Source: an uncultured Pseudomonadota bacterium
GTDB lineage: Bacteria > Pseudomonadota > Alphaproteobacteria > Rs-D84
Assembly (NCBI GenBank): GCA_946613885.1
Contig: CAMOGA010000010.1
Coordinates: 1 to 41,050, forward strand
Direction: 5' to 3'
Length of the DNA: 41,050 nucleotides
Shown here: positions 11,633 to 36,969 of the stretch, in pieces
Position numbering within the stretch: position 1 is the first letter of the stretch
Layout: each line of letters starts with the position of its first letter
Translations under genes and position numbers: made by a program
Notes under the pieces: model-generated
What the model was told of the DNA's origin: nothing
What the model saw: the letters and a program-made list of their open reading frames with translations, nothing else
Database searches by the model: none

Positions 11633-13408
11633 ATGAAATTTAATGCCAAACAATTACAACAGATGTCTAACACAGTGCGCGCAAACGCATTGGGTGCGGT
11701 GTTATCTGCACATTCTGGACATGTTGGAATCATTTTAGACGCATCAGAAATAATAACATGCATCTTTGCAAACCATTTGCGTCGTGGAATTGACCGATTC
11801 GTTTTATCGTGTGGACATGGTTCGGCATTGTTATATTCGGTGTTAAAATTGGCTGGATATAAAATTGGTAAATTGAATACATTTCGTAAATTTGGTGGAT
11901 TGCCCGGACATCCTGAATATGGAATTGATGGCGTTGACGCAACAACTGGGCCGTTGGGTTTGGGGGTTGGCAATGCGGTTGGTTTGGCATTATCCCAGAA
12001 AATTCGTGGTATTCGTGCGCACACATACACTATTGTTTCTGACGGCGATTTGATGGAGGGCGTATCATTTGAATCCTTGGCATTTGCCGGCCGATACAAT
12101 TTGAATAATTTAATAATATTATGGGATGATAATCGGTTGTCTATTGATGGCATTGCCCAAACAGATATTGATATAAACGCGCGTATGCGTGCAATGGGAT
12201 TTAATGTAATGTCTGTGCGTGGAAATGATATCGCTTCAATTGAACACGCACTGGAACGTGCAAAAAAATCAAACGCCCCCGTGTTTATTCAATGCAGAAA
12301 TATTTTGGGGCGCGGTTCATCTTTGGCGAATAATTCACGTGCGCATGGTTTTGCGTTATCTGATACAGAGATGTTGGAATTAATTTCAAAGAACACAAAT
12401 TCTGACGGTTTACATTTATGGAATTTGGTTGGAAAACGTCCAATTGCCCAGAAAATATGTGCGGTACCTGTATTGCCACGTGTAAAAATTCCAAAGATAC
12501 CAGATAATATTTCTACGCGTGAATTGTCTGGAATATATCTGGATTTATTAATGCGCGCAGGTGTTGATTTAATTACTGGGTCGGCAGATTTGGCGGATAA
12601 TACACGGGTAAAAACATCTGTATCGCGTGATATAACATCAAAGAATTTTGATGGAAATTATATAAATTATGGTGTGCGCGAACATGCAATGGCGGCAATA
12701 ATGAACGGTATGGCGGCGGATGGATTACGCGCGGTGGGTTCTACATTTTTAGTATTTTCAGATTATATGCGCCCATCAATCAGGATTGCGGCAATGTCTG
12801 GATTACCAGTGATTTATGTTTTTTCACACGACAGTGTTTGTGTTGGTCAAGATGGGCCAACGCATCAACCGATTGAACAGTTGCCATCTTTGCGTTTGAT
12901 ACCCGAATTAAATGTTTTTCGGCCGTGTAATATGGCTGAGGTTGCGTATGCATGGAATACAGCAATTTGTGATATAAAACATCCATCTGCGATAATTTTA
13001 TCGCGTCAGAAATTCAGACAAATTCAATCGCCAAACGATTCAGAAATGGACCGCGGCGGGTATGTTATTTATCCGGCACGTTCAGGTCGTGCAAAAACAA
13101 CAATTATTGCCACAGGGGCTGAGGTTTCATTGGCGGTGGAAATCGCATCACGTTTTAAAAATGTTCAGGTTGTATCCATGTTAAATGTTTCACAATTCCG
13201 TGCCCAGGACAATGTCTATAAAAACAAAGTTTTGCGCGGATGTGTTGTCGCGATTGAGGCTTCATCTCCATCGCCATGGTTTGAATTTGCGGATGCAGTA
13301 ATCGGAATTGATAAATTTGGTGCATCTGGGGATGGTGATGTTGTTTACAGAGAATATGGATTTAATATTGATAAAATAATAAATGAAATAAAAAATTACA
13401 TACAATAA
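11633..13408 (+). CDS. Transketolase (compact, divergent)
   Basis: A 591-residue thiamine-diphosphate enzyme that transfers two-carbon ketol units in the non-oxidative pentose phosphate pathway. The N-terminal half shows the HSGHVG site (canonical NSGHPG), VLSCGHGSALLYS, GLPGHPEYG, TTGPLGLGVGNAVG, and the TPP/Mg motif VSDGDLMEG ... LIILWDDNRLSIDG. The central Pyr domain has GVREHAMAAIMNGMA (catalytic Glu) and SVCVGQDGPTHQPIEQ, and the C-terminal domain ends in AIEASSPSPW ... DKFGASG. It is about 70 residues shorter than typical transketolases, but all cofactor motifs are present. It could also be a related DXS-like enzyme, though TKT fits better. Stop and next ATG overlap (TAATG). Confidence 0.85.
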   Translation: MKFNAKQLQQMSNTVRANALGAVLSAHSGHVGIILDASEIITCIFANHLRRGIDRFVLSCGHGSALLYSVLKLAGYKIGKLNTFRKFGGLPGHPEYGIDGVDATTGPLGLGVGNAVGLALSQKIRGIRAHTYTIVSDGDLMEGVSFESLAFAGRYNLNNLIILWDDNRLSIDGIAQTDIDINARMRAMGFNVMSVRGNDIASIEHALERAKKSNAPVFIQCRNILGRGSSLANNSRAHGFALSDTEMLELISKNTNSDGLHLWNLVGKRPIAQKICAVPVLPRVKIPKIPDNISTRELSGIYLDLLMRAGVDLITGSADLADNTRVKTSVSRDITSKNFDGNYINYGVREHAMAAIMNGMAADGLRAVGSTFLVFSDYMRPSIRIAAMSGLPVIYVFSHDSVCVGQDGPTHQPIEQLPSLRLIPELNVFRPCNMAEVAYAWNTAICDIKHPSAIILSRQKFRQIQSPNDSEMDRGGYVIYPARSGRAKTTIIATGAEVSLAVEIASRFKNVQVVSMLNVSQFRAQDNVYKNKVLRGCVVAIEASSPSPWFEFADAVIGIDKFGASGDGDVVYREYGFNIDKIINEIKNYIQ

Positions 13409-14112
13409 TGTCTGCTGAAAATGTTTTTACTTTATCAAACGGGGAACAAATACCGGTAATAATTGAAAACCGCCGTGGTGTTCGTAATGTGACTTTGCGA
13501 CCTAAATTAAATCCTGTGCGTGAAATACATATATCAAAGCCATGGTTAACATCAAACAGTTTTGTTTTGAAATTTTTAGAATCCAAACGTAAATGGATAG
13601 AACATATTTTTGATAAAGCCCCAACCAAAGAAAAAATAAAACCGGATATGACAATTGAAATATTGGGACGAAATGTCAAATTGATTCATGATACAACAAT
13701 GCGTGGGAATTGTTATGTTAATGAAGAAAAAACAATTTTATGTATTGGGGGCGGGGCAGATATGTTTGAACGCCGCGCGCGTGATTTTATAAAAAATGAA
13801 TTATTAACAGAAATTAAAAAGATTATAAAAACCACACCACGTAAATATTGGCCGACACGAATAACATTGCGTGATACAACTTCGCGATGGGGGTCATGTT
13901 CAACAACAGGCAATATGTCTTTTTCGTGGCGATTGGCATTTGCACCATACGAAGTAATGCGATATGTCGTTATGCACGAATTATCACATCGTGAACATAT
14001 GGATCATTCGGCTGAATTTTGGGCGACAGTATCAGAACTGTATGGATTTGGTGTAGAACGTGCAAAAAGATGGTTAACAAAAAACGGTCAACATTTGCAT
14101 AAATACTTTTAA
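13408..14112 (+). CDS. YgjP/WrbP-type zinc metallopeptidase (DUF45)
   Basis: A 234-residue protein of the YgjP family (PF01863-type). The N-terminal beta region has RGVRNVTLRPKLNPVREIHI, followed by the SKRKWIEHI segment typical of this family. The conserved block RDTTSRWGSCSTTGNMSFSW precedes the gluzincin motif H190-E-L-S-H194, and His200 in MDHSAEFW is the third ligand. Most members are cytosolic; some are UTP pyrophosphatases or accessory to restriction systems, so the substrate is unclear. The ATG overlaps the transketolase stop codon, implying coupled translation. Confidence 0.85.
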   Translation: MSAENVFTLSNGEQIPVIIENRRGVRNVTLRPKLNPVREIHISKPWLTSNSFVLKFLESKRKWIEHIFDKAPTKEKIKPDMTIEILGRNVKLIHDTTMRGNCYVNEEKTILCIGGGADMFERRARDFIKNELLTEIKKIIKTTPRKYWPTRITLRDTTSRWGSCSTTGNMSFSWRLAFAPYEVMRYVVMHELSHREHMDHSAEFWATVSELYGFGVERAKRWLTKNGQHLHKYF

Positions 14113-14151: not shown

Positions 14152-15468
14152 ATGAAAAGAACAATTTTATATTTAACTATTGCTGTTGGTTTTTTTGCAT
14201 GGAACGTTGATGCACATGCGCGTGGGCTTGCGTATGATGAGAATTCTTTTCCTGAAGATTTTGGGGCGACCAGTTTTTGCAGTGCTGAATTAGATTCCGA
14301 TGGTGCTGTTTGCGGACGATATGGCACAGGTGGGGATGTGGAACAGACAGCGTGCAGGACAGATCAAAATAATGGCTGGCGGAAAAAAGATGCACCTTGT
14401 AAAGTTACCGGATCCAGTGTTGCGCGTTGTTTTCCACAAAAAAATCGTGCCGGTGATTGGGTGTCTTCATGTGCTGCATGGGAATGTCAATCGGGGTATT
14501 TATTGTGGACAAGATTATATAATAAAAAAGATGGCCTAGAAATAATTGGCGATACCACACGTCGTGTTGTATCAATGGGGGCGTGCAAATTGAAAAGCAG
14601 ATTACAGGCACGTTGTGATGCGGGGTGTGGTTGTGAACCTGATGAAAAATGTGTGTTAAATGAGGTTGTAGTAAGAAACCATGGCAAAAATGTTGCTGCG
14701 TTTATTGGTGATGAAATGTGCGTATGTAAAAAATCTGGTGCACCGGTCATCCCAGAAACGTGCGAAACGAAATACGCCGGATATCCACGTGCGATTGATT
14801 GTTGTAATGCCGAATTGGCTGGCAAAAATGTCAAATGGATTGGCGATAAAGCAGCCGGATATTGTAAATGTAATGATGAAAATAAAATTTGGGATGAAGC
14901 GACAAAACAATGTATTGAAAAAGACAATAATGCTGAAATCGAATGTTGGTACACGTTAAATGTCGCAATACAATGTAAAAACGGAAATTATTTTAATAAA
15001 AATGTATTGGTAAAATTGGCTGAATCAAAAGTAAAACAGGAATCATGTGAATTGTTAAAGAAAGATATGCAGAATCTGGAAAGATTGGTGACTGTATCTT
15101 CTGGTGAAATAAAATCGTATTCAAATTTGATAAAATCTGTTTGTGGTGATAATTCTACATCAATTCTTCCATACAGCGAGGCTGATTTAAAGGCGGCACG
15201 TGAAACGTTAAAAAGTTTCTTTGCGAACGCAAATGAAAATGCCAGTGTGTGGAAAACCGAAGCAGGTAATTTTAACGGTGCGCGTTTGGCATCTGATTTG
15301 ACGGCTGGTGTTGTGTTGGGAACGGTTGGTGGTGTTGTTTCCAGTAAAGTTATTAAAAAGAAACAAATTGAAAAAGGATTCGAAGTATTGCATTGCACGA
15401 TTGGCGGACAAACCGCTGCGGATTGGGGTGATACATTTACTGTCGGTCTGAATAAATATAACAATTAA
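14152..15468 (+). CDS. Secreted Cys-rich protein A
   Basis: A 438-residue exported protein of unknown function. The signal peptide covers residues 1-23 (MKRTILYLTIAVGFFAW..., AHA cleavage). The exported part holds over 25 Cys in EGF-like spacing, including CDAGCGCEPDEKC and a module CETKYAGYPRAIDCC ... YCKCNDENKIWDEATKQC. The C-terminal ~110 residues start at CGDNSTSILPYSEADL. They contain a Gly/Ala-rich hydrophobic segment (LASDLTAGVVLGTVGGVV) followed by basic residues (SSKVIKKKQIEK), probably a membrane or pore-type helix, and end after TIGGQTAADWGDTFTVGLN. This tail is nearly identical to that of the next gene. Disulfide formation in the periplasm or on the surface is inferred from the Cys pattern. 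Confidence 0.7.
   Translation: MKRTILYLTIAVGFFAWNVDAHARGLAYDENSFPEDFGATSFCSAELDSDGAVCGRYGTGGDVEQTACRTDQNNGWRKKDAPCKVTGSSVARCFPQKNRAGDWVSSCAAWECQSGYLLWTRLYNKKDGLEIIGDTTRRVVSMGACKLKSRLQARCDAGCGCEPDEKCVLNEVVVRNHGKNVAAFIGDEMCVCKKSGAPVIPETCETKYAGYPRAIDCCNAELAGKNVKWIGDKAAGYCKCNDENKIWDEATKQCIEKDNNAEIECWYTLNVAIQCKNGNYFNKNVLVKLAESKVKQESCELLKKDMQNLERLVTVSSGEIKSYSNLIKSVCGDNSTSILPYSEADLKAARETLKSFFANANENASVWKTEAGNFNGARLASDLTAGVVLGTVGGVVSSKVIKKKQIEKGFEVLHCTIGGQTAADWGDTFTVGLNKYNN
15139..15453 (+). repeat. 315-bp direct repeat, copy 1 (3' end of secreted gene A)
   Basis: From GTTTGTGGTGATAATTC to GTCGGTCTGAAT. It aligns without gaps with 16801-17115, and I count about nine base differences, most of them at third codon positions. 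Confidence 0.9.
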
Positions 15469-15498
15469 AAAAAACTTTTTTTATGTTGACATTTATGA

Positions 15499-15504
15499 TA
15501 AAAT
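15499..15504 (+). promoter_or_regulatory. -10 element of the second secreted Cys-rich gene
   Basis: GATAAAAT at 27 nt before the ATG at 15532. A TTGACA at 15486-15491 is too close to be its -35. AGAAAGGGTG follows as ribosome binding site. Confidence 0.35.
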
Positions 15505-15531
15505 ACAAACATTGAAAGAAAGGGTGTAGAT

Positions 15532-17118
15532 ATGAAAAAAATCATGTTGTGCTCATTAACGGCATTGGTTGCATGGGGAATGGTTGTTGATGGATGCTGG
15601 GCGGTAGATAAGGTTATTACAGATCCTAATTATATAGGTGATGGTACGTGGATCTTTGCTCCCGGAAAGGCGGTTAGATGTGGAACCCGTGATGAGCATG
15701 TTCAAAATCAACATTATGTTACTAAATTTGGTGGATATAATAATAATCAAGAGCATGAGTTTCAAACAAGAAAATGTCTTGCTCATGGAAACGATCAGTT
15801 TATAAAAGCAGATACACCAAAATGTGGATCAGGAAAATATTGGTGTGTGGATATGTCAAAAGCATATGAACTTTGCAGTCCTATTAATGATATGATTACT
15901 TTAAGTTCTGATTATAATGTTTACGAATCTGCTGGGCATATGTGTTGGGATTGTATTAAAGGGTATAGTACCCCAGATAAAGATTATACTATCCCAAGTG
16001 CCCAATGTACAGGATCTGTGTGTAAGATCACTACAAGAATGTGTGTTCCAGATGATATGGTAAATTGTTTTAAAGCAGCAGCAGCAGGTCAGCCCGCGAA
16101 CTGGAATGGTACCAGTTGTAATTGCGGTAGTGTAGACGGGATAATTTATACGTGGAAGAACGGTAAATGTGTAAAGACAAACAGTACTGACGACAAAAAT
16201 AAACCTGACGACAATAACAACCAGAAAGATGATAAGAAAAAGAAAGACGGTGGTAACGACATATCGTGTAAACAAAGTCGTACCACGGAAGAAGGTAAGG
16301 CATGTTGCGATTTGGCATCAGCTGTTGCGAAATGGGATGGACAACATTGTAATTGTACCGGTGGTAAGCAATTTAAAATTGTTAACGGTCGTGGAACTTG
16401 TACAATTAACGAAACATGCGAAACAAAATATGCCGGAAATAATGAAGCCATTGCATGTTGCAATTTATCAAAAACAACAGGTGAAGCCACGTGGGTTGAA
16501 GGCATGAACAGATGTGTTTGCAATGATGAAAGCAAAACATGGGATAAAAAAACATTTACGTGTGTTGATGGTGGTGCGTCCAATCCTGTCGTGCCTGTAT
16601 CAGAATGTCGGTATACATTAAATATAGATATCCAATGTAAAAACGGTAATCATTTCAGCAAAAACGCATCTGTTAAATTGACAAATGAACAAGTGACTGC
16701 GGCACAATGCGATACATTGAAACAAAACATGCAAAGCATTGAAAATATGCTGAAATCAACTAAAAATGAAGTCAGTACATATGCAGAAATTATCAAAACG
16801 GTTTGTGGTGATAATTCTACATCAATTCTTCCATACAGCGAAGTTGATTTAAAGGCAGCACGTGAAACGTTAAAAAGTTTCTTTGCAAACGCAAATAAAA
16901 ATGCCAGTGTGTGGAAAACCGAAGAAGGTAATTTTAACGGTGCGCGTTTGGCATCTGATTTGACGGCTGGTGTTGTGTTGGGAACGGTTGGTGGTGTTGT
17001 TTCCAGTAAAGTTATTAAGAAGAAACAAATTGAAAAAGGATTCGAAGTATTGCATTGCACAATTGGCGGACAAACCGCTGCAGATTGGGGTGATACATTT
17101 ACTGTCGGTCTGAATTAA
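15532..17118 (+). CDS. Secreted Cys-rich protein B
   Basis: A 528-residue exported protein, paralog of its upstream neighbour. The signal peptide is residues 1-24 (MKKIMLCSLTALVAWGMVVD..., CWA cleavage). The N-terminal half is Cys-rich and unlike protein A. A charged linker (about 218-242, DDKNKPDDNNN then KDDKKKKDGG) leads to two repeated modules with the pattern C-C-(x)n-W-(x)n-C-x-C-(x)n-C: ACCDLASAVAKWDGQHCNC and ACCNLSKTTGEATWVEG...CVC. The C-terminal ~160 residues align with protein A, and the last ~105 are almost identical, including the Gly-rich hydrophobic helix followed by KKKQIEK. Function unknown; surface or envelope location is inferred. Confidence 0.7.
   Translation: MKKIMLCSLTALVAWGMVVDGCWAVDKVITDPNYIGDGTWIFAPGKAVRCGTRDEHVQNQHYVTKFGGYNNNQEHEFQTRKCLAHGNDQFIKADTPKCGSGKYWCVDMSKAYELCSPINDMITLSSDYNVYESAGHMCWDCIKGYSTPDKDYTIPSAQCTGSVCKITTRMCVPDDMVNCFKAAAAGQPANWNGTSCNCGSVDGIIYTWKNGKCVKTNSTDDKNKPDDNNNQKDDKKKKDGGNDISCKQSRTTEEGKACCDLASAVAKWDGQHCNCTGGKQFKIVNGRGTCTINETCETKYAGNNEAIACCNLSKTTGEATWVEGMNRCVCNDESKTWDKKTFTCVDGGASNPVVPVSECRYTLNIDIQCKNGNHFSKNASVKLTNEQVTAAQCDTLKQNMQSIENMLKSTKNEVSTYAEIIKTVCGDNSTSILPYSEVDLKAARETLKSFFANANKNASVWKTEEGNFNGARLASDLTAGVVLGTVGGVVSSKVIKKKQIEKGFEVLHCTIGGQTAADWGDTFTVGLN
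16801..17115 (+). repeat. 315-bp direct repeat, copy 2 (3' end of secreted gene B)
   Basis: Gapless match to 15139-15453, about 97% identical by eye. The flanking coding sequence is much less similar, so the boundary is sharp at the 5' side. Confidence 0.9.
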
Positions 17119-17159: not shown

Positions 17160-17442
17160 GGTGCAATAGACGAGAATAAATTCGCCCCCAGTGGGGGTAA
17201 TTCTGCCCCATGGGGGAAGTGTCCGCGCAGCGGACAAAGGGGGTAAAAACTCACTACGACATTACCGAAAAATCTGTTGCTTTTTCACAAATCTGTATTA
17301 AAATATAAATCATAATGATTACAAAAAATATATCTTTGACACATCGTTTTCATCACGCGGCGCGTGCCGTGTGTTTCTAGCTATCTTTCTATTTTTATGT
17401 TATAATGCCGTCATGGCGAAAAAATAATTTATCAACCACAGG
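17160..17442. other. Intergenic region with clustered GC palindromes upstream of hisS
   Basis: No gene seen. It holds a run of G+C-rich inverted repeats: CCCCCAGTGGGGG (about 17185-17197), CCCCATGGGGG (about 17206-17216) and TGTCCGCGCAGCGGACA (about 17220-17236). A TATAAT at 17401-17406 is a plausible hisS -10. A four-codon ORF (ATGGCGAAAAAATAA, 17413-17427) lies between this -10 and hisS, with no evident function. Confidence 0.6.
17401..17406 (+). promoter_or_regulatory. -10 element of the hisS-prfA operon
   Basis: TATAAT about 45 nt before the hisS start codon. The -35 is not convincing. Confidence 0.4.
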
Positions 17443-17451
17443 ATGAAAAAA

Positions 17452-18741
17452 ATGGATTTAAAACCAACAAAACCTTTAAGCGGATTTATAGAATTGTTGC
17501 CGGCGCAACAACGTTGTTTTGATTATTGTGCAAACAAAATGCAAAATGTTTTAAGAAATTGTGGGTATTCTAGATTGGATTTACCGGCAATCGAACGTGC
17601 CGAGGTTTTAACTGATAAAGATAATTGGGATGAAATAGAAACGCAAATCTTTTTGTTTCAAAAAGGCGATACAAAAATGGGGTTGCGCTATGATGGTACT
17701 GTCGGGTTGTCGCGCTTTGTCGCAGGACATTTAACTGATTTAAATTTTCCATTTTATACGTATCAATTTGCACGCAATTATCGTGGCGAGCGTCCTCAGC
17801 GTGGTCGTTATCGTGAATTTTGGCAATTAGATATTGATATTTTGGGTGTTCAAAACTTGTCTTTGAATTATGATGCAGAAATTGTATCAACATTGATGAA
17901 AATGTATGAATCTATTTCTGATATTGTTGGCGGTGTTCGTGCTAAAATTGGCAATCGTCGTTTTTGGAACGCAATGTTCGCCTATTTAAATTTAAATGCA
18001 GACCAGGCACGTGCCGCGTTTGTTTTGATTGACAAACGTGACAAGATTTCTGATTTCTTCGAAGGTTTGGTTGAAACCGTTGGTGAATATGCGGCCAAAG
18101 AAATCGATGCAGTATTTACAAACGGATATCGTTCTTTTGTTGGAAAAACAGAAGAATTAGATGCGGCGATTTCTGAAATGGATAAATTTATGACGCTGTT
18201 GAACGCTATGGGTGTTAAAAATGCAGAAATAGATGTTTCGATAATGCGTGGACATTCATATTATACTGGGATTGTGTTTGAATTTTTCTCGATAGATTAT
18301 CCTGATTTGCCGGCGGTTGGTGGTGGTGGTCGTTATGAAGATTTGGTTTCTAAATTTTCTAAGACAAAAATTGTTGGCGTTGGGGCATCAATTGGGGTAT
18401 CCAGATTACTGGTTGCGTTAATGGAGGCAGGCAAAATCGATTTAACCCGTTTTTCAAAACCTGTTGATGTTGCAGTATTGGTTATGGGCGATGATAATTT
18501 GGCATACGCGATGCAGGTATTAAATACTTTGCGTGGCGAAAACATCCCATCGGTTGCATATTTGGATACTGATAAAAAATTCAAGAATCAAATTGAATAT
18601 GCCGATAAAATCGGTGCGCGTTTCAGTGCGATTATTGGCGAAACAGAAACTGCAAATAATGTTATTGCGTTAAAAAATATGGAATCTGGAAACCAAGAAT
18701 CTGTATCGTTGTCAGATGCGATTAAAATTATAAAGGGATAA
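17452..18741 (+). CDS. hisS: Histidine-tRNA ligase
   Basis: A class II aminoacyl-tRNA synthetase of 429-432 residues that charges tRNA-His. Numbering here is from the alternative ATG at 17443. Motif 1 region is LPAQQRCFDYCANKMQ. Motif 2 is YQFARNYRGERPQRGRYREFWQLD (about 107-130). The HisA histidine-specific motif is RGHSYYTGIVFEF (269-281), and motif 3 is GASIGVSRLL (314-323). The canonical RGLDYYTG is altered to RGHSYYTG, although the catalytic Arg remains. The C-terminal anticodon-binding domain is present. ATG 17452 has AGGA at an ideal 8-nt distance; ATG 17443 is only 0-1 nt from the same AGG. It is followed by prfA after 3 nt, so it is an operon. Confidence 0.93.
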   Translation: MDLKPTKPLSGFIELLPAQQRCFDYCANKMQNVLRNCGYSRLDLPAIERAEVLTDKDNWDEIETQIFLFQKGDTKMGLRYDGTVGLSRFVAGHLTDLNFPFYTYQFARNYRGERPQRGRYREFWQLDIDILGVQNLSLNYDAEIVSTLMKMYESISDIVGGVRAKIGNRRFWNAMFAYLNLNADQARAAFVLIDKRDKISDFFEGLVETVGEYAAKEIDAVFTNGYRSFVGKTEELDAAISEMDKFMTLLNAMGVKNAEIDVSIMRGHSYYTGIVFEFFSIDYPDLPAVGGGGRYEDLVSKFSKTKIVGVGASIGVSRLLVALMEAGKIDLTRFSKPVDVAVLVMGDDNLAYAMQVLNTLRGENIPSVAYLDTDKKFKNQIEYADKIGARFSAIIGETETANNVIALKNMESGNQESVSLSDAIKIIKG

Positions 18742-19849: not shown

Positions 19850-20558
19850 TTTATGATATAATGATACCATATCAAGGAAAGGTTTTTTACAAATGGCATT
19901 AAATTTATTAAACGACAAAGATTTTAACGATTATCTGACAGATATTACTTATCAGGGTGCGACTGTACCAAAACAGCAAAATTTTCAGGGTGAATTTGAA
20001 AGTGCCGATTATGTGTTTCAACATCGTGATGAAATTGTTAAGGGGATATTAAATCAATACATTAAATTACGTGTTCGTGAATATTTATTAAATCAAAATA
20101 ATGAACCTGCATTTATACCGGTGGATAAAAACAGAACTGATTTGCCTGGTTGGGCATACAGGGTATTTGAACGTGGTGAAAACATATACCAATTTGATGG
20201 TTCAAAAATGTCAAACAAATTACGTGAAGATATTATAACTGTGCGTGATTATCTGTATGATTTTGCGGGACAATATGTTGATAAAGTAATAGAAACAGCC
20301 AAAAAAACAGAAAAAAAGCCAAAAATAAGATACGATTTTTTAAAAACAACCAATGAATACGATACTTTTGATAAGGCATTAACTGCTGCAAAAAATTGGC
20401 ATGAACACATGTCAGAAGAATTGGCAAAGCGCAATCGTGGTCGTGAATTGTTTGAAAAATCGTTAAAGGGTGCAAAATACGTGATGGATTTACCGGACAA
20501 TATGTTTGCATATCAATTAACCACCGAAGAAGCGTTAGATTTTGAATCTGAATATATG
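19850..20558 (+). repeat. ~709-bp inverted repeat, copy 1
   Basis: From TTTATGATATAATGATACC just upstream of the -10 box through codon ~222 of the repeat-protein gene. The reverse complement of 36304-37012 matches every segment I compared and encodes identical residues 1-227. Divergence begins immediately after the GHCVG codons. Confidence 0.85.
19857..19862 (+). promoter_or_regulatory. -10 element of the large LRR/PcfJ-like gene, copy 1
   Basis: GATATAAT 31 nt before the ATG, followed by a strong AAGGAAAGG ribosome binding site. The -10, leader and ribosome binding site are shared exactly with copy 2, but the -35 region is not. Confidence 0.5.
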
Positions 20559-22325
20559 GGGCATTGTGTGGGCAGTGGCGGTTATGATGCCGGTGTAAAA
20601 AAAGGTTCGATAAAGATATATTCGATACGTGATGAACGTGGTGAACCGCATGCCACATTAGAGGTACGTGGGAACGAAGTTCATCAAATCAAAGGTAAGC
20701 AAAATAAAGCGCCAATTCGTAAATACATTCCTGCGATTAAACATTTTTTAGAAACACAAAAATTAGATGTGGTTCATGATTTAAAAAATCTGAAGTTAAT
20801 AAAACAGGATGGTAAATATTATGATATATTTAATTTGCCAAAGGGCTTTGTTGTTAACGGAAATTTAGATCTGAGTTATATGGAATTAACAGAATTACCA
20901 GACCTTAGTGATGTTGTCGTGCGGGGAAATTTCAATTGTTCCCAAAACCAATTAACCAGTTTACAGGGTGCCCCAAAAACAGTCGGGGGGGATTTCCGTT
21001 GTTCCCAAAACCCATTAACCAGTTTACAGGGTGCGCCACAAACAGTCGGGGGGGATTTTGATTGTTCCAATAAACAATTAACCAGTTTACAGGGTGCCCC
21101 ACAAACAGTCGGGGGGGATTTCAATTGTTCCCAAAATCAATTAACCAGTTTACAGGGTGCACCACAAACAGTCGGGAGGGATTTTAATTGTTCCCGAAAC
21201 CAATTAACCAGTTTACAGGGCGCACCACAAAGTGTTGGGAAGGATTTCAATTGTTCCCGAAACCAATTAACCAGTTTACAGGGTGCCCCACAAAAAATTG
21301 AGGGAAATTTCGATTGTGGCGGCAATCAATTAACCAGTTTACAGGGTGCCCCACAAACAGTCGGGAGTTTCTATTGTTCCGACAACCAATTAACCAGTTT
21401 AGATGGTGCCCCACAAACAGTCGGGATGGATTTTTATTGTTCCGATAACCAATTAACCAGTTTAGATGGTGCCCCACAAACAGTCGGGGGGGATTTTTAT
21501 TGTTCCTACAACCAATTAACCACTTTACAGGGTGCCCCACAAACAGTCGGGAGGGATTTCAATTGTTCCTACAATCAATTAACCAGTTTACAGGGTGCCC
21601 CACAAACAGTCGGGTGGGATTTCAATTGTTTCAATAACCAATTAACCAGTTTACAGGGTGCCCCACAAACAGTCGGGCTGGATTTTGATTGTCGCAATAA
21701 CCAATTAACCAGTTTACAGGGTGCCCCACAAAAAATTGGGAGGAGGTTCGAGTGTTCCAATAACCAATTAACCAGTTTAGATGGTGCCCCACAAACGGTC
21801 GGGGGGGATTTCCGTTGTTCCAGCAATCAATTAACCAGTTTACAGGGTGCCCCACAAACAGTCAGGGGGGATTTCCGTTGTTCCAGCAATCAATTAACCA
21901 GTTTACAGGGTGCCCCACAAACAGTCGGGAGTTTCTATTGTTCCGACAACCAATTAACCAGTTTAGATGGTGCCCCACAAACAGTCAGGGGGAATTTTGA
22001 TTGTTCCAATAATCAATTAACCAGTTTACAGGGTGCCCCACAAACAGTCGGGGAGAATTTCAATTGTTCCGACAACCAATTAACCAGTTTAGATGGTGCC
22101 CCACAAACAGTCGGGGGGAATTTCAATTGTTCCGACAATCAATTAACCAGTTTACAGGGTGCCCCACAAAAAATTGAGGGGAGGTTCGATTCTTCCCATA
22201 ACCAATTATCTGAACAGCAAACTGGCAATAGTGAGGTTTTTCGCCAAGGAATTAAAAAAATCAAGGCAAGGGTAAAGGGTTTATACGAATTGTTAAAAAA
22301 CAAAACAACAAATAATGAACAATAA
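19893..22325 (+). CDS. Giant LRR-like repeat protein with PcfJ-like domain, copy 1
   Basis: An 810-residue protein without signal peptide. Residues 1-195 are an unrecognised helical domain. Residues ~200-290 (AYQLTTEEALDFESEYMGHCVG, IYSIRDERGEPHATLEV, then VHQIKGKQNK) resemble the PcfJ-like domain of plasmid-associated proteins, including a His-Cys pair (H224, C225) and a G-K-x-N element. After a bridging strand (residues ~320-346), 20 repeats of 20-21 residues (consensus FNCSxNQLTSLQGAPQTVGGD) run from 20931 to 22184. A shortened cap (FDSSHNQLSEQQTG) and a basic C-terminal helix (EVFRQGIKKIKARVKGLYELL) follow. The repeats resemble phage and IpaH-type LRR solenoids. I infer a protein-protein recognition module; the activity is unknown. 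Confidence 0.8.
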   Translation: MALNLLNDKDFNDYLTDITYQGATVPKQQNFQGEFESADYVFQHRDEIVKGILNQYIKLRVREYLLNQNNEPAFIPVDKNRTDLPGWAYRVFERGENIYQFDGSKMSNKLREDIITVRDYLYDFAGQYVDKVIETAKKTEKKPKIRYDFLKTTNEYDTFDKALTAAKNWHEHMSEELAKRNRGRELFEKSLKGAKYVMDLPDNMFAYQLTTEEALDFESEYMGHCVGSGGYDAGVKKGSIKIYSIRDERGEPHATLEVRGNEVHQIKGKQNKAPIRKYIPAIKHFLETQKLDVVHDLKNLKLIKQDGKYYDIFNLPKGFVVNGNLDLSYMELTELPDLSDVVVRGNFNCSQNQLTSLQGAPKTVGGDFRCSQNPLTSLQGAPQTVGGDFDCSNKQLTSLQGAPQTVGGDFNCSQNQLTSLQGAPQTVGRDFNCSRNQLTSLQGAPQSVGKDFNCSRNQLTSLQGAPQKIEGNFDCGGNQLTSLQGAPQTVGSFYCSDNQLTSLDGAPQTVGMDFYCSDNQLTSLDGAPQTVGGDFYCSYNQLTTLQGAPQTVGRDFNCSYNQLTSLQGAPQTVGWDFNCFNNQLTSLQGAPQTVGLDFDCRNNQLTSLQGAPQKIGRRFECSNNQLTSLDGAPQTVGGDFRCSSNQLTSLQGAPQTVRGDFRCSSNQLTSLQGAPQTVGSFYCSDNQLTSLDGAPQTVRGNFDCSNNQLTSLQGAPQTVGENFNCSDNQLTSLDGAPQTVGGNFNCSDNQLTSLQGAPQKIEGRFDSSHNQLSEQQTGNSEVFRQGIKKIKARVKGLYELLKNKTTNNEQ
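20931..22184 (+). repeat. In-frame 63-bp tandem repeat array (20 units)
   Basis: Eighteen units of 63 bp and two of 60 bp. In each unit the core AACCAGTTTACAGGGTGCCC followed by CACAAACAGTCGGG is almost invariant even at third positions. Variation is concentrated around the GG-N-GATTTC-NAT-TGTTCC-NNN window, and a second unit type uses TTAGATGGTGCC or CAAAAAATTGAG in place of the core variants. Confidence 0.9.
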
Positions 22326-35200: not shown

Positions 35201-35228
35201 AAAAAACTGGCGCGATTGCGTCAGTTTT
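35201..35228. terminator. Shared terminator of ackA and large LRR gene copy 2
   Basis: AAAACTGGCGC-GATT-GCGTCAGTTTT inverted repeat, the reverse complement of the terminator that follows copy 1. It overlaps the extended 3' end of the copy 2 coding sequence. Confidence 0.75.
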
Positions 35229-36969
35229 GTTGTTCATTATCTGTTGTTTGGTTTTTTAACAATTCGTATAAACTCTTTACCCTTGCCTTGATTTTTTTAA
35301 TTCCTTGGCGAAAAACCTCACTATTGCCAGTTTGCTGTTCAGATAACGGGTTATTGGAATAATCGAGAATTCCCCCGACTGTTTGTGGTGCACCATCTAA
35401 ACTGGTTAATTTGTTGTGGGAACAATCGAAACTCCAGACTGTTTGTGGGGCACCTTGTAAACTGGTTAATTGGTTGTGGGAACAATAGAATTGCCCCCCG
35501 ACTGTTTGTGTGGCACCCTGTAAACTGGTTAATTGATTGCCGGAACAATCGAAATCCCCCTCAATTTTTTGTGGGGCACCCTGCAAACTGGTTAATTGGT
35601 TTTGGAAACAATAGAAATTCCCCCTGACTGTTTGTGGGGCCCCCTGTAAACTGGCTAATTGGTTGCCGGAACAATTGAAATTCCTCTCAATTTTTTGTGG
35701 AGCCCCCTGTAAACAGGTTAATTGGTTTTTGAAACAAAAGAAATTCCCTCTGACTGTTTGTGGCGCTCCCTGTAAATTGGTTAATTGGTTATTGGAACAA
35801 TTGAAATCCCCCTCAATTTTTTGTGGGGCACCCTGTAAACTGGTTAATAGGTTGTGGGAACAATAGAAACTCCCCCCGACTGTTTGTGGGGCCCCCTGTA
35901 AACTGGTTAATAGGTTGTCGGAACAATTGAAATCCCCCCGCACAACAACATCACTAAGGTCTGGTAATTCTGTTAATTCCATGGAACCCAGATCTAAATT
36001 TCCGTTAACAACAAAGCCCTTTGGCAAATTAAATATATCATAATATTTACCATCCTGTTTTATTAACCCCAGATTTTTTAAATCATGAATCACATCTAAT
36101 TTTTGTGTTTCTATAAAGTGTTTAATCGCAGGAATGTATTTTCTAATTGGCGATTTATTTTGCTTACCTTTGACTTGATGAACCTCGTTCCCACGAACCT
36201 CTAATGTGGCATGTGGTTCACCACGTTCATCACGTATCGAATATATCTTTATCAAACCATTTTTTACACCGGCATCATAACCGCCCTTACCCACACAATG
36301 TCCCATATATTCAGATTCAAAATCTAACGCTTCTTCGGTGGTTAATTGATATGCAAACATATTGTCCGGTAAATCCATCACGTATTTTGCACCCTTTAAC
36401 GATTTTTCAAACAATTCACGACCACGATTGCGCTTTGCCAATTCTTCTGACATGTGTTCATGCCAATTTTTTGCAGCAGTTAATGCCTTATCAAAAGTAT
36501 CGTATTCATTGGTTGTTTTTAAAAAATCGTATCTTATTTTTGGCTTTTTTTCTGTTTTTTTGGCTGTTTCTATTACTTTATCAACATATTGTCCCGCAAA
36601 ATCATACAGATAATCACGCACAGTTATAATATCTTCACGTAATTTGTTTGACATTTTTGAACCATCAAATTGGTATATGTTTTCACCACGTTCAAATACC
36701 CTGTATGCCCAACCAGGCAAATCAGTTCTGTTTTTATCCACCGGTATAAATGCAGGTTCATTATTTTGATTTAATAAATATTCACGAACACGTAATTTAA
36801 TGTATTGATTTAATATCCCCTTAACAATTTCATCACGATGTTGAAACACATAATCGGCACTTTCAAATTCACCCTGAAAATTTTGCTGTTTTGGTACAGT
36901 CGCACCCTGATAAGTAATATCTGTCAGATAATCGTTAAAATCTTTGTCGTTTAATAAATTTAATGCCAT
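35221..36969 (-). CDS. LRR-like repeat protein with PcfJ-like domain, copy 2
   Basis: A 582-residue protein. Residues 1-227 match copy 1 exactly, and the PcfJ-like region then shows scattered changes (GHCVGKGG versus GHCVGSGG, IETQKLDVI versus LETQKLDVV). It carries only nine 21-residue repeats plus a cap, with more divergent units (FFCFKNQLTCLQGAPQKIERN, FYCFQNQ...) that alternate APQTVRGN and APQKIEGD types. The C-terminal helix is shared. The stop codon of copy 1 (TAA) reads CAA here, so translation continues for two codons to a TGA inside the terminator stem. Activity unknown. No signal peptide. Confidence 0.8.
   Translation of the reverse strand: MALNLLNDKDFNDYLTDITYQGATVPKQQNFQGEFESADYVFQHRDEIVKGILNQYIKLRVREYLLNQNNEPAFIPVDKNRTDLPGWAYRVFERGENIYQFDGSKMSNKLREDIITVRDYLYDFAGQYVDKVIETAKKTEKKPKIRYDFLKTTNEYDTFDKALTAAKNWHEHMSEELAKRNRGRELFEKSLKGAKYVMDLPDNMFAYQLTTEEALDFESEYMGHCVGKGGYDAGVKNGLIKIYSIRDERGEPHATLEVRGNEVHQVKGKQNKSPIRKYIPAIKHFIETQKLDVIHDLKNLGLIKQDGKYYDIFNLPKGFVVNGNLDLGSMELTELPDLSDVVVRGDFNCSDNLLTSLQGAPQTVGGSFYCSHNLLTSLQGAPQKIEGDFNCSNNQLTNLQGAPQTVRGNFFCFKNQLTCLQGAPQKIERNFNCSGNQLASLQGAPQTVRGNFYCFQNQLTSLQGAPQKIEGDFDCSGNQLTSLQGATQTVGGQFYCSHNQLTSLQGAPQTVWSFDCSHNKLTSLDGAPQTVGGILDYSNNPLSEQQTGNSEVFRQGIKKIKARVKSLYELLKNQTTDNEQQN
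35368..35931 (-). repeat. In-frame 63-bp tandem repeat array (9 units) in copy 2
   Basis: Nine units (eight of 63 bp, one of 60 bp) of the same consensus as in copy 1, but with a more mixed pattern: OTVRGN/KIEGD endings alternate, and two units carry Phe in place of the usual Ser after Cys. Confidence 0.85.

Follow-up and report, generated by a model that had tools for sequence, protein, structure and literature searches.

A probable recombination-diversified family of exported proteins with a constant tail and exchangeable heads in the order of Candidatus Enterousia

Organization of the locus

The window, the whole stretch of 41,050 nucleotides that was analysed, contains two Cys-rich genes, A and B, which follow each other in tandem with a YgjP-like gene on the left and hisS on the right (Table 1). 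The product of gene A has 438 amino acids, 25 of which are cysteines, and that of gene B has 528 amino acids with 33 cysteines. Both have a hydrophobic N-terminus. The variable N-terminal portion of each protein is called here the head and the common C-terminal portion the tail. The number of promoter-like sites (17) does not clearly exceed the chance expectation of 12.3 (standard deviation 3.7). The gap between gene B and hisS holds short C- and G-runs at 17185-17247 (CCCCCAGTGGGGG and a near copy), possibly a small repeat element.

Table 1. Features of the two tail genes and of the conserved site S1 in the window
Feature	Position	Strand	Basis
YgjP-like metallopeptidase gene, left flank of site S1	13408..14112	+	Pfam, synteny
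Gene A, with signal peptide, Cys-rich head of family F9 (present too in L087 and L124) and common tail	14152..15468	+	ORF
Region of A homologous to B but diverged, with the CETKYAG and C-YTLN modules, adjoining the tract on its 5' side	14752..15138	+	
Homogenised tract, A copy (315 bp; 97.1% identity with the B copy)	15139..15453	+	
Hydrophobic Gly-zipper segment (GxxxGxxxG) in the tail of A, LTAGVVLGTVGGVVSSKVI; basic KKKQIEK comes next	15298..15354	+	
Gene B, with signal peptide, modular Cys-rich head containing an Asn/Asp/Lys-rich linker, and common tail	15532..17118	+	ORF
Diverged homologous region of B, counterpart to that of A	16408..16800	+	
Homogenised tract, copy in gene B	16801..17115	+	
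Terminator-like hairpin 3' of gene B	17133..17158	matches on both strands	consensus match only
hisS, right flank of site S1	17443..18741	+	Pfam, synteny

Repeat-bearing genes are present elsewhere in the window. Those at 19893-22325 (plus strand) and 35221-36969 (minus strand) align at 93.1% in inverted orientation over 1.6 kb of their 5' parts; their arrays of CSxNQLTSLQGAPQTVGGDF-type repeats differ in length, and their 3' ends match again. A third, diverged gene with similar repeats lies at 677-1546. Near the contig end (40440-40919, minus strand) is a small Cys-containing ORF, head-like and with no tail in view, which may be a cut gene.

The 315-bp tract and its edges

The original prediction, that the tandem Cys-rich genes share a 315-bp block at about 97% identity, proved exact. 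At an offset of 1662, the two copies differ at 9 of 315 bases, with the edges where they had been placed. The nearest mismatches outside the tract are at 15138 before it and at 15454 after it, and the edges are therefore sharp on both sides. Gene A runs five codons beyond the end of the tract, and gene B stops there.

Of 381 codon-aligned sites in the stretch directly 5' of the tract, 164 differ between A and B, compared with the 9 of 315 inside it (Fisher p 4e-40). Inside the tract, dN is 0.012 and dS is 0.088; in the homologous stretch directly upstream, the values are 0.53 and 1.51, respectively. The homology starts at about residue 200 of A and consists of the CETKYAG Cys module and then the C-YTLN module, with a nucleotide identity of about 57%. 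Farther upstream, blastp of the two heads gives only chance-level pieces. The N-terminal parts, which had been predicted to be unrelated, are indeed unalignable before about residue 200 of A, but they are homologous after it. Gradual fading of similarity across the whole genes, the pattern that the prediction had set against itself, is absent. For the window's A/B pair and the pair of genome G003, no shared 5' homology was detected.

The shared tail

The tail is about 95 residues long and is built of a helix, a glycine-zipper hydrophobic segment, a basic patch and the motif CxVGGQxVAxWGDxFxVG. An alignment of 87 tails contains 19 invariant columns (GxFN..RL.SD, the glycine zipper, KK.Q, G, C, Q and D) preceded by a near-invariant W, and the glycines of the hydrophobic segment are invariant or near-invariant. 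The KD19 value of this segment is 1.61 in the window (mean 1.64 over 104 proteins), a marginal value near the usual threshold for a membrane helix, and the net charge is more positive after the segment than before it in 73 of the 104 proteins. The tail would most likely anchor the protein in a membrane through its Gly-zipper helix. When modelled alone, it folds poorly (AF2 pLDDT 57), and a fold search with this poor model matched nothing. No family match for the tail was found in Pfam, NCBIfam or the PDB (0 matches in a profile search of the latter), and neither A nor B has a credible match in Pfam or NCBIfam, or an OmpA-like domain.

When the tail half was used as a single query, 23 of 40 genomes matched, all from the window's genus: 23 of 24 genomes of that genus, the window's own included, and 0 of 16 others. 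A tail profile matched 168 of the 201 genomes searched in the order to which Ca. Enterousia belongs, in 13 of 23 genera (110 of 126 among the good-quality genomes of the order). Across the class the profile matched 5 of 385 genomes, all 5 from this order. A search of the genome for additional genes with this tail had been proposed together with the prediction; the window's own genome (91% complete) holds two tails only. The Candidatus Enterousia intestinigallinarum record is one genome of the window's genus; locus L158 of genome G043 lies within L110. Among IMG/VR viral contigs, 121 stretches fit the patterns and none of these encodes a relative, which therefore gives no support to a phage origin. 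In the literature on Enterousia/Rs-D84, reduced genomes and variable surface genes that was consulted, no description of the tail or its locus was found.

Several tail genes depart from the common plan. The gene at 2070-4841 of L043 encodes a 924-residue protein, unlike the others, in which the tail motif is internal (residues 660-743) and is followed by about 180 residues. A diverged C-terminal relative at 3-425 of L046 (genome G013) has a Gly-rich segment and then HCYVGGQLVGDFGD, which suggests a wider tail superfamily in the order. Tail-only remnants, or contigs that break inside the tail, are found at L195 (5553-5756), at L197 (3401-3631) and at the contig ends of L072 and L073, and point to partners that may have decayed and to contigs interrupted at the repeat during assembly.

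The heads and their location in the envelope

The head of A is modelled with an AF2 pLDDT of about 90 over most of residues 81-255, and Foldseek gave no PDB match to the model of A at E 0.001. Heads were grouped into families by single-linkage clustering, F1 being a loose family. The head of A resembles that of the second gene of L087 (38%) and that of L124 (37%) over about 150 amino acids. The heads differ in kind: Pfam assigns 6 of 102 proteins to OmpA, 7 to DUF5874 and 2 to CarboxypepD_reg, while in NCBIfam up to 10 of the 102 match one OmpA-type model and 3 match SMC-like coiled-coil models. Cysteine exceeds 4% in 72 of 101 heads. A search of the window's own genome with protein B matched only A and B itself.

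Omp85 is present in 13 of 13 genomes, and LpxC and LptD in 12 of 13 each, the window's own genome included in every case. Judged by these genes, the window's genus keeps its outer membrane, and heads anchored in the inner membrane would therefore sit in the periplasm. Loss of the outer membrane, which would have exposed such heads, was considered and rejected on the same gene content. The predicted arrangement of variable extracellular heads on a membrane tail is retained in part: heads are replaced in relatives, the membrane location is read from one marginally hydrophobic segment (KD 1.61), and the heads may be periplasmic if the tail anchors in the inner membrane, an outer location being the alternative.

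Replacement of heads at fixed chromosomal sites

In the window's clade, the tail genes are found between YgjP and hisS (site S1), where 14 loci with both anchors comprise 10 single and 4 double ones. In other clades they are found between gyrB and dnaA. The latter site is represented by 49 loci: 41 have a single gene, 2 have a tandem pair and 6 have two genes back to back, the second member being a tail-only remnant in one of these six (L195). In the stretches fetched, there were no tail matches near dnaA in 4 of 4 genomes of the window's clade, and none between YgjP and hisS in 4 of 4 genomes of other clades. The two sites look mutually exclusive.

Single-gene gyrB-dnaA loci were compared by GyrB identity, using a blastp cut-off of 1e-8 for the heads. 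At a GyrB identity of at least 95%, the heads have no match in 38 of 66 locus pairs, and the median tail identity of the same pairs is 0.89. The heads are without a match in 348 of 412 pairs at 90-95% GyrB identity and in 322 of 342 pairs at 85-90%.

Closer comparisons of relatives, with one genome per species, locate the replaced segment. A flank block with a nucleotide identity of 84% or more is present in 25 locus pairs. The tail is at least 90% aligned in 24 of these; the head is less than half aligned in 18 and half or more aligned in the other 7. Among the 4 pairs whose flanks are 95% identical or more, the head is replaced in 3. In L083/L095, L080/L083 and L084/L088, the flanks are about 96.5% identical, the signal peptide is conserved and the tail is near-identical, whereas the heads are distantly related or unalignable at the DNA level. 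In L195/L205, the flank and the tail are 92.6% identical and the 5' region 82.5%, with 1.1 kb between them unaligned.

Inversion and movement of heads

Divergent pairs carry their tails as inverted repeats. Genomes G003 and G165 both have gyrB on the left, and their flanks are collinear and 78-80% identical, but a segment of 536 columns containing the head and the start aligns in reverse. The heads have swapped sides, as recombination between inverted tails would do. Similar heads are also found in different clades and at different sites: the head of L076, a YgjP-hisS locus, is 54% identical over 158 amino acids to that of the right-hand gene of G143 at gyrB-dnaA, with tail cores only 58% identical, and the heads of L076 and L084 are 47% identical over 159 amino acids, with tails at 64%.

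Homogenisation of tails and the histories of head and tail

From 106 genes, 103 tail cores of 192 nucleotides were obtained; L046, which has no anchor motif, and two incomplete cores were left out. The median identity of in-genome pairs is 0.776 (n=54) and that of between-genome pairs is 0.672 (n=5199; 95th percentile 0.760). An identity of at least 0.90 is reached by 14 of 54 in-genome pairs compared with 8 of 5199 between-genome pairs, where the multi-copy genomes were hand-picked among the matches listed and the in-genome counts are not a random sample. The cores are identical in three in-genome pairs (G143, G153 and G165), and the other side of the distribution is that 40 of 54 in-genome pairs fall below 0.90 and are not homogenised. 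Some tails group by orthologue and not by genome (G013/G015 and G023/G173). In most of the 17 in-genome pairs that were profiled, the tract starts 30-120 nucleotides before the FNxxRL motif and ends near the stop; the exceptions include G143 and G165, which have longer tracts, and L087, which has no recent tract.

A and B form sister branches of the tail tree (100/99). The AU test rejects a grouping of A's tail with the tails of L124 and L087 (p 9e-5) and with that of L124 alone (p 5e-5); the tested group was defined from heads, at a time when an earlier tail tree had already been seen. On the evidence of these trees, A's tail did not descend together with A's head. The gene conversion or modular exchange originally proposed is supported by this result, by the contrast in dS (0.088 against 1.51) and by the replacement of heads in relatives.

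Alternative explanations

One alternative is that the pair arose by a recent tandem duplication and that positive selection then drove the heads apart very quickly, without any segments being exchanged. Such a history is consistent with the tandem adjacency of the genes and with the homology of part of the region upstream of the tract. However, dS too, not dN alone, jumps from 0.09 to 1.5 at the boundary, the nearest full-head relatives of A are in other species and those of its tail are not, and tracts of similar extent recur in other genomes, all of which makes duplication very improbable. Preservation of an essential anchor by strong purifying selection or by constraint on its codons, with which the order-wide conservation of the tail protein is consistent, is if anything less credible still: the eight closest tails of other genomes are at dS 0.53-1.04 from A's tail, compared with 0.07 for A and B over the same 64 codons, and synonymous sites of the tail are therefore unconstrained. 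No better than duplication is the proposal that two strains were merged at the repeated tail in metagenome assembly. The named records are metagenome-assembled or come from uncultured organisms, and contigs do break at tails (L197 of G157, and G011); but a single 41-kb contig contains both of the window's copies, which differ at nine bases, and the same pattern is seen again in numerous separate assemblies, among them loci that have only one tail copy.

Two further alternatives involve recombination of a particular kind. A programmed inversion that switches heads, with the inverted tails as recombination sites, would fit the second, inverted tail in 6 of 49 gyrB-dnaA loci (one of them the L195 remnant), the swapped heads of G003 and G165, and the order of the loose families, which is F2/F1 in G153 and F1/F2 in G065. 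It is nevertheless improbable, since 41 of 49 loci hold one gene, the two genes of the window point in the same direction, and inversion of divergent genes with their own starts need not alter expression. Horizontal transfer of heads from other species or sites, by crossovers at the conserved ends and with in-genome shuffling playing a minor part, is a serious possibility to which we give somewhat less than an even chance. Similar heads are found at different sites or in different clades with unlike tails (L076/G143, L076/L084), and protein B matched only A and itself, so that no archive of B's head is seen in its own genome. The inversion and the converted tails show in-genome recombination as well, and the two routes are compatible.

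Proposed mechanism

At the level of sequence, comparison of the genomes demonstrates that tails are homogenised, that heads are replaced while their flanks stay collinear, that one inversion has taken place and that the fixed sites are clade-specific. The explanation that we consider probable is a family of exported envelope proteins, diversified by recombination, with swappable heads and a constant tail, and confined, as searched, to the order of Ca. Enterousia; the part played by recombination is very likely. Each protein would consist of a signal peptide, an exchangeable ectodomain (the head) and a constant C-terminal anchoring tail. The conserved ends would serve as anchors for homologous recombination, either within the genome or with DNA of relatives. 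Recombination would replace entire heads at a fixed locus and would homogenise the tails of adjacent copies by conversion, the 315-bp block being one tract of this kind. Where two copies sit back to back, it would invert head segments. We infer that the agent is RecA-type recombination (RecA is present in 12 of 13 genomes, the window's own included), and diversifying selection on the head would presumably be the driver. The most likely function would be that of an envelope receptor or adhesin in which the head confers specificity and the tail provides the anchor, although the chances for and against a recognition or adhesion role appear to us evenly balanced.

Comparison with known systems

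The BabA/BabB/BabC adhesins of Helicobacter pylori have near-identical N- and C-terminal ends and a divergent middle, and their chromosomal loci change occupants by gene conversion (PMC4552749). Two traits of this kind are found here: a near-identical 3' end with low dS that is common to paralogs and, in relatives, a variable part that is replaced at a fixed locus between collinear flanks. The Bab proteins, according to the same account, are outer-membrane proteins (PMC4552749), whereas the tail family has a different sequence and one hydrophobic segment. Unlike in Bab, its variable part is the whole ectodomain and belongs to unlike classes (Cys-rich, OmpA-like and coiled coil). By analogy, the tail family would be Bab-like in process and unrelated in sequence.

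Variable proteins likewise result from gene conversion at an expression site in the Msp2/P44 system of Anaplasma and the VlsE system of Borrelia. These systems use arrays of silent donors, and here a search with protein B found no silent copy of it in its own genome. The sapA genes of Campylobacter fetus, which encode S-layer proteins, have homologous ends and undergo exchange and inversion; their conserved end and secretion route presumably differ from those of the tail family. OmpA/Pal-type peptidoglycan-binding domains are matched by about a tenth of the scanned heads. They represent one head class among several, A and B have no such match, and the tail is not OmpA.

Biological significance

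The group to which the window's bacterium belongs has reduced genomes and a likely dependence on partners, and hypothetical membrane-bound proteins may mediate transport or contact (PMC12306168). A more specific reading, which we think unlikely, is a genus-wide recognition system of partner-dependent gut bacteria, with one or a few envelope receptors per cell at one privileged site, beside gyrB/dnaA in most species. The whole binding head would then be exchanged as a cassette between species, sites and strands, while the Gly-zipper tail with its conserved end would couple the heads to the same machinery, and the heads would set the specificity for a partner, a phage or kin.

With genomes of about 1 Mb or smaller, these bacteria probably depend on partners. 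A head that is replaced while its surroundings remain unchanged makes the protein a strong candidate for a molecule under selection at the partner interface. The constant tail makes it easier to list the head repertoire of the order, and would allow metagenomes to be used for testing whether the head changes with the host animal, the partner or the phage.
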